NCBI GenBank assembly: GCA_003644265.1 | Contig: QNBX01000030.1 | Coordinates: 1 to 34,006, forward strand | Origin: Planctomycetota bacterium | Lineage (GTDB): Bacteria; Planctomycetota; B15-G4 | Length of the DNA stretch: 34,006 nt | Direction: 5' to 3' | In this document: positions 135-16,025 of the stretch, piece by piece | How the letters are laid out: the number at the start of each line of letters is the position of its first letter | How positions within the stretch are numbered: the stretch's first letter is position 1 | Notes under the pieces: generated by a model | Told to the model about the DNA's origin: nothing | The model's input: the letters and a program-made list of their open reading frames with translations, nothing else | Databases searched by the model: none | Translations under genes and position numbers: made by a program

Positions 135-1484
135 ATGACCCGTACACTCGCCCAGCTGACCCTGCCCCTGACCCTGGCGCCGCTGCTCGGCGCCGCGTTG
201 GCCTGCACCTCGCCGCGCACCGACGTGGACGCCGCCACCGGAGGTCTGGCCCAGCCCCGCCTGCGGGTCGAGGACAGCGCCGCCTGGTCCCGGCACATCG
301 CCCCCGCCGGCGACGAGCTGGCCTTCGAGTCGGTGGGCTGGATCCCCGACTTTGGCCAGGGGCTGGTGGCCGCCGATGAGGCGCAACGCCCGCTCTTCTT
401 CTGGGCCATGAACGGGCACCCGCTGGGCTGTACCTGAGCCAACGGCTTGGCGGACCGTCGGTCCGTCTTCCAGGACGAGCGCGTGCTGAGCATGGCCAAG
501 CGCTTCGTGTGCGCCGCCGATGAGATCTGGCGCCTGCAGCGCGGCGCGGACGCCGACTGCTTGATGTTCCAGTCCATCGTCACGGGCGGCGAGCGCATCA
601 GGGACCGCGGCACGCGGCAGGGCACCTGGGTCATCGCGCCTGGCGGCGCGCTGCTGGCCTTCACCAACAGCCGCGACCCCCAGCGCGTGCTGGCCGCGCT
701 GCAGCTGGGGCTCGACGCCTGGGAGCAGCTCAGCGACGCGCAGCGTCACCTGCCTGCCGACGTCGATCTGACGCCCGCGCACCGCTGGGAGCAGAGCCTG
801 CCCGAGGGTGGCCTTGTGCTCGAGCGCATCGCCCGCGTGCTGCCTGAGGAGGGGCTGGCGGGCGCGCGCAGCGACCGCTGGAACCGCGATTTCGTGTGGT
901 TCAGCGCGGACGAGCTGGCGCGCGAGTTCCCCGACCAGCTGCCCGTGGGCGAGACGTTCAGCCTGCCTCTGGTAGCCAGCCGACTGGCGCGCCTGCACCT
1001 GGTGGACAACGCGCGCGGGCAGACCATCCCCTACGCGCCGCAGGAGCTGGAGCTGGCGCGGTTGGACGCCACGGTCGTCTCGCGGGAGGGCGACCACGTG
1101 CAGCTTGAGTTCGACGGCCACACGCTCGCGGTGTCCGACGGCAGCTGGCACCTGGGCGAGAACGACTGGAAGCCCTCACAGCCCCTGCCCCACGGCATCG
1201 AGACGCGGCTGGTGGGCCGCGCCGTCTGGGACACCCGCGCAGCCCGGCTGCTGGAGCTCGAGCTGATCGGCCTGGGCCGGCATTGGGGGCGCACCGAGAA
1301 CAACGGCCGCGGCCTCGACCCGTCGCCGGGCCTGGTGGGCTTCCTGATGCGGCCTGCGGCAGCGGACCAGGCCGTGGCGCCCACATTCATCCTGGCCTAC
1401 GACGCCGACTGGGTGCGCCGGCCCGAGGTGCCGACCTGGCGCGTATCGCCAGACGAGGTGAGCGCAGACCGCGCGTCGGACTGA
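135..1484 (+). CDS. Putative thioredoxin-like selenoprotein (lipoprotein), TGA-encoded Sec at residue 101
   Basis: One continuous frame of 449 residues interrupted only by TGA at 435-437. The N-terminus is a lipoprotein-type signal (hydrophobic stretch ending ALAC, Cys24). Residues ~80-101 read LFFWAMNGHPLGCT then TGA, a thioredoxin-like strand followed by a Cys-Thr-Sec (C99, U101) redox-type motif. The frame continues without a break into ANGLADRRSVFQDERV, with helix and strand texture typical of the fold (GTWVIAPGGALLAF further on), then a C-terminal domain of unknown function to residue 449. A hairpin with bacterial SECIS geometry sits 19 nt after the TGA (separate entry). A conventional caller would split this into a 100-aa ORF and a TTG-started 345-aa ORF at 447, which would sever the thioredoxin-like domain. 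Seen: in-frame TGA, C-x-U context, hairpin. Known: selenoproteins often pair Cys with Sec in thioredoxin folds. Inferred: selenocysteine insertion, envelope thiol redox role. Alternatives are a nonsense mutation or sequencing error. No selABCD genes lie in this window. No strong Shine-Dalgarno is seen at 135. Confidence 0.72.
449..467 (+). promoter_or_regulatory. Candidate bacterial SECIS hairpin
   Basis: Bases 449-456 pair with 460-467 (eight pairs, one of them G-U at 450/466) around a three-base loop, gtc, at 457-459. The loop begins with G and starts 19 nt after the last base of the TGA at 435-437. These match the known bSECIS rules: a stem-loop in the coding sequence just after UGA, loop roughly 16-37 nt from the UGA, and a G in the first two loop positions, for SelB binding. 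A small competing hairpin (ccaa/ttgg, 439-450) overlaps the base of the stem. Function is inferred from geometry alone. Confidence 0.6.
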
Positions 1485-13601: not shown

Positions 13602-16025
13602 ATGCTGAGCGCCCCGCTCGCGCCCGAGCTGATCTGGGGGCTGCTGCCGCGCATCATCGGCGCGGCCTTCGCCGTGGCCTTCCTCTCGCTCAGCCGACAG
13701 GTCGTGCCGCTCGTGGGTCGGCGCGGCATCTCCCCGCTGCATCAACGTCTGGCGCGGCTGGCCCGCGACGTGCCCGCGCCGCGGCGCTGGTTCGAGCAGC
13801 CCACGCTGTTCTGGCTGCACTGCAGCGACCGAGCCCTGGCGCTCACGCCGCTGCTGGGCACAGCGGGAGCCGCCCTGGCCATCTGCGGCGGACCGCTGGG
13901 CTGGTGGGGACTCCTGATCTGCTGGCTGTGCTACCTGTCGCTGGACGTGTGCGGGCTGTGGCTGCCGTGGGACACCATGCTGCTGGAGCTGGGCTTCCTG
14001 TCGTTGTTCCTGCCCACGGCACAGGCGCTGCCCGAGCTGGCGGCCACCGAGCTGCCCCTGCCCAGCGTGGCCTTCATGTTCCGCTGGCTGGTGATCCGGC
14101 TCATGTGGGGCTTCGCCAAGCTGAAGTTCATCGGCACCGAGCGCGGCGACAGCCTGTACCTGCAGGGTTTCCTGACCTGGCTGCCCATGCCCACCAAGCT
14201 GGGCTGGTTGCTGCAGCACGCGCCGCCCGCCTGGCTGCGCCTGGGCTGCGCCTTCATGTGGACGGCGGAGGTCATCGCACCGCTGCTGGCCTGCCTGGGC
14301 GGGACGCCGCAGCTGGTGGGTGCGGGGCTGCTGGTCATGCTCATGCTGGGCATCTGGGGCACCGGCAACTGGGGCCACTTCAACCTGGCCTACGCCGGCG
14401 TCTGCATCGTGCTGCTGGACACCTCCTCCACGCTCAGCGATGCCTGGGCGCCGGGCGCGCCCGCCTGGCAGGCGGCCCCCGATGTCTGGGTGCACGCCGC
14501 CATGGCCGCGCTGTTCGTCATCAGCCTGGCGCTGTTCCCGCTCAACAGCTGGGTCACCCAGGCCGCGCCGCAGTGGAACGCCGATCGTTTCAGCTGGAGC
14601 CGCCCCTGGCTCGCGCGCCTGCTGGCCGCCCTGCGCCTGCTCAATCGCCTGCGGCTGGTGGGCGCCTACGGCGTGTTCCCGCCCAACACCAGCCCGCCCA
14701 TCAAGCTGGTGCCGGTCATGCAAGGCAGCCACGACGGCCTGACCTGGACGCCCATCCCCTGGCGCTTCATGCCCGTGGGCGAGCGCAGCCCGCCGCGCTG
14801 CATCGCGCCACACCACCCGCGCCTCGACCACTCGTGCATCTACGTGGGCCTCGGCCTGAACGAGTCCGACCCCGTGGGCGGCATGATGTTCGAGGCCAAG
14901 CCCTACGGCATGTCGCCCTACTCGCAGCACTCGTGGCTGCAGCGCCTGGTGCAGCGCGTGCTCGAGGGCGAGCCCAGCGTGCTGCGTCTGCTGGGCAGCA
15001 ACCCCTTCGCCGGGCGCCCGCCCAGCTGGGTGCGCGTGGTGCATCAGTGCCTCAAGCCCACCAGCCTGGAGCAGCGCCGGGCCAGCGGACGCTGGTGGCA
15101 CGCGCGTCCCATGTGCCTGCTGCACGAGCCGGTGCGCAGCGACCCGTCGCTGTGGGAGCGCTGGATCGCCGAGCCCGAGGGCGTTCACCCCGAGCTGAGC
15201 CACTGGCGCCGACGCAGCCCGGCCCTGACCGCCATGGTGCGCGCCGCCGAAAGCAGCGGCAGCACAACGCAGGGCCGGACACGCAGCCCAACGCAGGACT
15301 CGACGCAGGACTCAACGCAGGTCCCGACGCAGGACTCGACACAGATCCCGGCGCGAGGCGCCCCACCCGCTGCGGCAGCCGAGACGGCGCAGGGGTCAGT
15401 GCACTGCGCCTCCCTGCGAGCCGCCCTGCGCGTGGCCAGCGAGCTCTCGGCCGGCGACGTGCAGGCCTTCTGGGAGCAGTTCATCCCCTGGGTGAGCGCC
15501 CCCTCCCGGCGCGACGACTGGGACGCCCTGCCCGGCACCGTGGCCCAACTGCGCGCGCGCTTCGGCCCTCAGCGCCTGGCCGTCTTTGAGCGCCTCCACC
15601 AACGGGCCGTGCACCTGCTTGAGCGACGCGTCGAGCCCCACGTCTACGGACACCACCAGCCCCAGGTCGCCATCGAGCACCCGTTCCAGCTCCAGGCCGC
15701 CCTGGGCGCCGCGGTCTTCGACGGCGAAGCGGCCTTCGTCGCGCTGTGGCACGCGCCCGGCGCCCTGAGCGCGCGCCTCGCCACGCTGAGCGAGGCGGCC
15801 CTGCTCTACCCCACCGGCCTGCTGCGCTGGGAGCTGGTGCGCTTCGTCATCCTGGGCCTGCGCGCGCGCACCCAGCTCTCGCGGGCGCCGGACATGCCCT
15901 GGGGCATCGGCCGCTACAAGCACTTCCTGCTGGCGCGCGAGGTCGGTCCGCAGTGGTTCCCTACCTGCACCAAGAGCCCCGACGGCATCTGGAGCGTGCC
16001 CGCCGAGCCCTTCGAGCAAGGCTGA
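13602..16025 (+). CDS. Lipase maturation factor (LMF1)-like membrane protein
   Basis: An 807-residue polytopic membrane protein. The region ~60-300 has many hydrophobic segments with features of the lipase maturation factor family: WDTMLLELGFLSLFLP, FRWLVIRLMWGFAKLKFIG and GTGNWGHFNLAYAGVCIVLL. Residues ~345-500 form the conserved soluble part (PPNTSPPIKLVPVMQGSHDG, then W-R-F-M-P and HHPRLDHS). In vertebrates LMF1 helps lipoprotein lipase fold in the ER; bacterial members are common but uncharacterised, and their client is unknown. The domain is followed by a low-complexity Thr/Gln/Asp/Ser stretch (repeat at residues 564-583) and a C-terminal extension (to 807) of helical character. It lies 55 bp after the ABC-F stop on the same strand and may be read through. 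The ATG at 13602 has no evident Shine-Dalgarno. Confidence 0.85.
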   Translation: MLSAPLAPELIWGLLPRIIGAAFAVAFLSLSRQVVPLVGRRGISPLHQRLARLARDVPAPRRWFEQPTLFWLHCSDRALALTPLLGTAGAALAICGGPLGWWGLLICWLCYLSLDVCGLWLPWDTMLLELGFLSLFLPTAQALPELAATELPLPSVAFMFRWLVIRLMWGFAKLKFIGTERGDSLYLQGFLTWLPMPTKLGWLLQHAPPAWLRLGCAFMWTAEVIAPLLACLGGTPQLVGAGLLVMLMLGIWGTGNWGHFNLAYAGVCIVLLDTSSTLSDAWAPGAPAWQAAPDVWVHAAMAALFVISLALFPLNSWVTQAAPQWNADRFSWSRPWLARLLAALRLLNRLRLVGAYGVFPPNTSPPIKLVPVMQGSHDGLTWTPIPWRFMPVGERSPPRCIAPHHPRLDHSCIYVGLGLNESDPVGGMMFEAKPYGMSPYSQHSWLQRLVQRVLEGEPSVLRLLGSNPFAGRPPSWVRVVHQCLKPTSLEQRRASGRWWHARPMCLLHEPVRSDPSLWERWIAEPEGVHPELSHWRRRSPALTAMVRAAESSGSTTQGRTRSPTQDSTQDSTQVPTQDSTQIPARGAPPAAAAETAQGSVHCASLRAALRVASELSAGDVQAFWEQFIPWVSAPSRRDDWDALPGTVAQLRARFGPQRLAVFERLHQRAVHLLERRVEPHVYGHHQPQVAIEHPFQLQAALGAAVFDGEAAFVALWHAPGALSARLATLSEAALLYPTGLLRWELVRFVILGLRARTQLSRAPDMPWGIGRYKHFLLAREVGPQWFPTCTKSPDGIWSVPAEPFEQG
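15291..15350 (+). repeat. 12-bp in-frame tandem repeat encoding TQDS/TQVP
   Basis: Five 12-bp units (type acgcaggactcg) encode T-Q-D-S, T-Q-D-S, T-Q-V-P, T-Q-D-S, T-Q-I-P at residues 564-583 of the LMF-like protein. The unit is a multiple of three, so copy-number change would alter only linker length. Confidence 0.9.

Follow-up and report, generated by a model that had tools for sequence, protein, structure and literature searches.

The closest known thioredoxin folds to the protein analysed here are those of the group formed by the DsbD C-terminal domain, DsbH and AGR2-AGR3-ERp18 (Pfam Thioredoxin_7, DsbH-like), whose sites are CxxC or CxxS and use cysteine. We analysed a stretch of 34,006 nucleotides from a Planctomycetota bacterium (assembly GCA_003644265.1, contig QNBX01000030.1, positions 1 to 34,006 of the forward strand), here called the window, in which the reading frame at 135-1484 carries an in-frame TGA that we propose is read as selenocysteine (Sec, U). 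In contrast to the DsbD/DsbH/AGR2 group, the family of this protein has a C-x-U-x-x-G motif with Sec, a longer loop before the site in alignments, and an extra β-rich C-terminal domain. The likeness is sub-significant in sequence (best PDB profile E 0.069); weak matches to Thioredoxin_7 (PF13899) occur in 17 of 42 members, the best at E 0.0023, and the window protein has none. The CxxC site of classical thioredoxin, DsbD and DsbH is absent: the motif here is C-T-U-x-N-G, with Gly, not Cys, at position +3 from Sec in 44 of the 47 chosen members that make up our alignment A2.

Among described selenoproteins, Sec.1 (PF13192; Table 1, PMC13188914) is likewise thioredoxin-like with a CxU motif; this identity was rejected, as PF13192 is absent from the matches of the 42 members at E<=1. 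The Trx7/PDZ selenoprotein (NF041199) and the VPGUxxT selenoproteins (NF041382 and NF041383) are also thioredoxin-like and remotely similar (best E 0.098, 0.051 and 0.025), with a different motif and sub-significant matches in only 1, 1 and 2 of the 47 members. For NF041199 the lone match is not over the cut-off, and this identity was rejected too. The window protein has no Pfam or NCBIfam match at E<=1, and the best library matches of the 47 members (E 0.011 in Pfam, 0.017 in NCBIfam) are not convincing. Glycine reductase selenoprotein A (GrdA), whose function is unrelated to the window family, was cited as a family for which Cys homologs were not known (PMC1794560); the deep-Sep paper later reported Cys homologs of it (PMC12013277). 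Hypothetical protein GOS_A has 155 reported Cys homologs (PMC2398784), whereas none was found for the window family in the Planctomycetota genomes searched. No entry in the 119-family Table 1 of a 2026 review (PMC13188914) could be matched to the window protein, and the main text of that review nowhere contains 'planctomycet'. Selenoproteins have been described in two planctomycetes (PMC4807772). The candidate table of that paper excepted, the family appears to be undescribed in the literature searched.

We propose, with a probability of about 0.88, that the gene at 135-1484 specifies an exported selenoprotein of 449 residues, from a planctomycete family that has had no name until now, with hairpin-guided recoding and catalysis by Sec101 in the cell envelope. 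Its parts are as follows.

135..1484, forward strand: complete putative selenoprotein gene (ATG at 135, Sec codon TGA at 435-437, terminal TGA at 1482-1484; 449 residues)
135..206, forward strand: predicted N-terminal hydrophobic export signal, residues 1-24, with a weak lipobox-like ALAC (21-24) ending at Cys24
306..734, forward strand: predicted thioredoxin-fold domain, residues 58-200, with the Sec codon inside
429..437, forward strand: putative active-site motif Cys99-Thr100-Sec101 (TGT ACC TGA)
435..437, forward strand: in-frame TGA as candidate selenocysteine codon, from TGA conservation and motif searches across genomes
449..467, forward strand: SECIS-like (selenocysteine insertion sequence-like) hairpin, an 8-bp stem 449-456/460-467 with the loop GUC at 457-459
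747..1460, forward strand: predicted C-terminal β-rich domain, residues 205-442, without clear structural relative

An earlier note on this DNA had pointed to the TGA as the sole internal stop, with Cys two residues before it and 348 codons after it, and the reading frame confirms this. The TGA is codon 101, the Cys99 codon lies at 429-431, and the context reads HPLGC-T-TGA-ANG. The note had also expected ordinary annotation to split the gene at the redox centre. Database proteins indeed start after the TGA or end just before it. A first search, over 5.8 billion proteins, gave 43 matches, among them the downstream open reading frame (ORF) of the window itself, and none of the 43 aligns to the query before residue 105. 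With a profile built from the N-terminal half, 6282 of 7994 scored candidates matched at E<=0.001; among the matches listed, all 120 N-terminal stubs stop precisely after HP[L/F][G/A]CT, their last residue being the one that directly precedes the TGA. The full-family profile found 40 proteins, and the single one that covers 94% of the query (P0045) is a member with Ser at the site (locus L112). In another database protein, P0037 (728 residues), the C-terminal part of the family is joined to a peptidase-like region (PF04389, PF01546).

Our proposal is supported by the conservation of the TGA. The sample comprised 392 genomes from the same phylum as G001, which is the genome that carries locus L001 and is titled Planctomycetota bacterium. 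Family matches were found in 96 of these, at 141 places; 110 loci covering 114 of the places were fetched, and tblastn was run over these, further loci and the window. In the 114 high-scoring segment pairs (HSPs) spanning codon 101, the codon is TGA in 105, Ser in six (TCA 2, TCG 2, TCC 1, AGC 1), Asp in one, Gly in one and TGT in one. An insertion beside the site makes the alignment there less sure for L090, L094 and one L108 row, all three with Ser. The lone TGT (L080) was rejected as a Cys form because it is a misalignment. Neither TAA nor TAG was seen in any of the 114 HSPs. The HSPs span 111 loci counting the window (L001 and L019 being the same gene), and those with TGA come from 82 genomes and the window. 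Of 382 genomes searched with the exact degenerate motif NGHP[L/F][G/A]CT, 66 have it directly ahead of TGA, at 76 places, and none has it directly ahead of a Cys codon, although the motif demands Cys99 and Cys forms with other flanks would escape it. According to the earlier note, homologs with Cys or TGA at the site would settle the matter; those found have TGA or, in a few, Ser, Asp or Gly, and no Cys form at the Sec position was found in Planctomycetota, the phylum to which the search was confined. In these alignments, the conservation of TGA in one column is far beyond chance. Around it, N103 and G104 are conserved in A2, and Cys is found at position -2 in 95 of 104 distinct TGA members.

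A second line of evidence lies in the RNA. In the window the hairpin starts 12 bases downstream of the TGA, and its GUC loop begins at the 20th base after it. Across 103 distinct TGA members, mean folding scores at 71 offsets have their minimum at +6 and their second lowest value at 0. When codons were permuted within columns, which keeps the protein, the native RNA was more stable, with z-scores (themselves noisy) of -6.1, -7.6, -6.0 and -4.4 at starts 0, +3, +6 and +9. Stems of at least 6 bp form in one register in 36 members and in a second register in 19, one member having both. Codon choice at Arg108 is also unusual: of the 103 members, 5 use CGC and 16 use AGA, whereas at the other Arg codons of these genes, 3650 in all, CGC accounts for 1934 and AGA for 101. 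Of the 16 AGA codons, 14 are in second-register members. At the family level, this pattern shows a SECIS-like hairpin after the TGA under apparent selection at synonymous sites.

The family also tracks the machinery for Sec insertion. Scored by the Rfam cut-off in the 392 genomes, the selenocysteine tRNA (tRNA-Sec) is over the cut-off in 227. Genomes with the family have it in 88 of 96 cases and those without in 139 of 296 (Fisher p 3e-16); for genomes that bear the TGA the count is 78 of 82, and for the remaining ones 149 of 310 (p 6e-17). The genomes are related, not independent, so these p-values overstate the evidence. SelA was found in 12 and SelD in 13 of 14 chosen TGA-bearing genomes, and 10 of the 14 SelD rows themselves have one in-frame TGA. 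A tRNA-Sec match is lacking in the genomes of two of the six Ser members (G099, G176) and of the Gly member (G297); the other four Ser members are in genomes that have such a match. A check for selA, selB, selD and tRNA-Sec, proposed in the earlier note, was thus positive in most relatives tested, and the window's own genome was reached through its relatives only.

AlphaFold2 predicts a confident thioredoxin fold followed by a β-rich C-terminal domain. In the model, Sec101 lies just before the helix that follows strand 87-92; together with the sub-significant alignments, this puts it at roughly the position that the attacking cysteine of CxxC takes in relatives of thioredoxin. Structural comparison found no clear relative of the C-terminal domain (residues 205-442). 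Taken together, TGA conservation, tRNA-Sec, SelA, SelB and SelD in relatives, the SECIS-like hairpin and the predicted fold bear out the idea of a selenoprotein with a thioredoxin-like Cys-x-Sec centre. The description 'thioredoxin-like lipoprotein' stands in its first word, by the predicted fold, and is too specific in its second. A hydrophobic N-terminal segment is present in 97 of 109 members and a lipobox-like site in 13 of 109, as called by a simple script, not SignalP, and the ALAC of the window is weak. Export is well supported by these predicted signals, a lipoprotein is weakly suggested, and 'exported' is the safer term.

In the mechanism that we propose, SelB and the charged Sec-tRNA would read the UGA at 435-437 as selenocysteine, guided by the downstream hairpin. 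In the cell envelope, Sec101 would act as catalytic selenolate on a substrate that is a peroxide, a sulfoxide or a disulfide. The intermediate would in most cases be resolved by Cys99 through a Se-S bond, and in members without Cys99 outside thiols may take over this step. The β-rich C-terminal domain probably binds a partner or substrate. The most likely predicted function is that of an envelope selenol oxidoreductase.

Several observations weigh against this proposal. Cys99 is missing in 9 of the 104 distinct TGA members. Four of the 82 TGA genomes (G104, G216, G281 and G290), all with SelB matches at E 1e-87 to 5e-102, have no tRNA-Sec match; a SelA match is absent in G216 and G281, and a SelD match in G104. 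The Sec machinery of the window's host is inferred from relatives. In the hairpin analysis, 49 of 103 members have no 6-bp stem in either register tested, and among the other ten windows of the permutation analysis the one at -60 gave z -4.2 and those at +21 and +24 gave +3.7 and +3.1, hence the noise in these z-scores. The window RNA alone is not unusual compared with dinucleotide shuffles (z -0.07 for 51 nt, -1.18 for 39 nt). Among the neighbouring genes, none is widely shared that points to a pathway.

The alternative that survives best accepts the selenoprotein and differs in its chemistry: Sec101 would act alone, in a peroxidase-like, metal-binding or metalloid-binding role, and Cys99 would not be the resolving residue. 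It draws on the nine members that keep Sec without Cys at -2, where the residue is H, A, P, V, N, D or R, on Cys at -1 in two TGA members, and on Gly at +3. The prevalence of Cys99 among the TGA members speaks against it, as does its absence from all five Ser members of A2. We regard this alternative as a serious one, although we lean against it. Divergent members that keep the TGA include L114 and L119, with Cys at -1, and L120, with Cys at neither -1 nor -2.

Far less probable is a true stop, with the N-terminal stub and the downstream ORF, starting at TTG 447, being two genes or a coupled pair. The pieces are stored separately in databases and the TTG lies just past the TGA. However, the TGA would split a single thioredoxin domain that is modelled confidently as one fold, N103 and G104 ahead of the TTG are conserved, the stop at this site is never TAA or TAG, and the family tracks tRNA-Sec. 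We consider it slightly less probable still that the TGA is read as another amino acid, either Trp by an altered code or by near-cognate readthrough. The full-length frame and a stop that is always TGA would fit, but TGA is also the terminal stop in 45 of 105 TGA members, the window included, tRNA-Sec and SECIS-like signals are present, and the non-TGA members have Ser, Asp or Gly at the site, not Trp. A pseudogene or sequencing error at codon 101, often what lies behind a premature stop, can be set aside: the TGA recurs in 105 of the 114 HSPs, across 82 genomes and the window.

Returning to the selenoprotein that we favor, a quick 108-row tree (SH-aLRT support, that is, Shimodaira-Hasegawa-like approximate likelihood ratio test, with no bootstrap, drawn at the midpoint with the root not known) requires a minimum of three switches between Sec and other residues. 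One Asp row and two Ser groups that stand apart from each other are placed among Sec rows, a pattern consistent, in this unrooted tree, with an older Sec state that was later lost. Adjacent paralog pairs were also seen: Sec/Ser (L108), Sec/Asp (L063) and Sec/Sec (L110). One tentative reading, to which we give a little under even odds, is that the family is obligate for Sec: cysteine could not do the chemistry, and loss of Sec would lead to Ser (two tree groups), Asp or Gly, the activity being given up.

Elsewhere in the window, positions 1-63, upstream of the selenoprotein gene, are a perfect tandem array of CCACACCT in 7.9 copies. The gene is adjoined at 1510-1971 on the reverse strand by an SUI1/eIF1-type translation factor domain (PF01253, E 1.3e-18). 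A protein with the Lipase maturation factor domains LMF1 and LMF1_C is encoded at 13602-16025 on the forward strand.

Our analysis brings together, in one large planctomycete family, fragments that carry separate annotations as hypothetical proteins, and gives grounds for re-annotating planctomycete genomes. Such a family would be prone to rejection in screens that depend on a Cys homolog; the deep-Sep authors say that their own method may miss selenoproteins without Cys homologs (PMC12013277). According to a 2025 remark in the same paper, Cys homologs seem to exist for every known selenoprotein; an obligate-Sec family, if true, would be a counter-example. It would then also rank among the main users of the Sec machinery in many planctomycetes, and might be part of the reason why they have kept it, although the family was not matched in 139 of the 227 genomes with tRNA-Sec. 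The family offers a natural case for asking why a redox site needs selenium, not sulfur.
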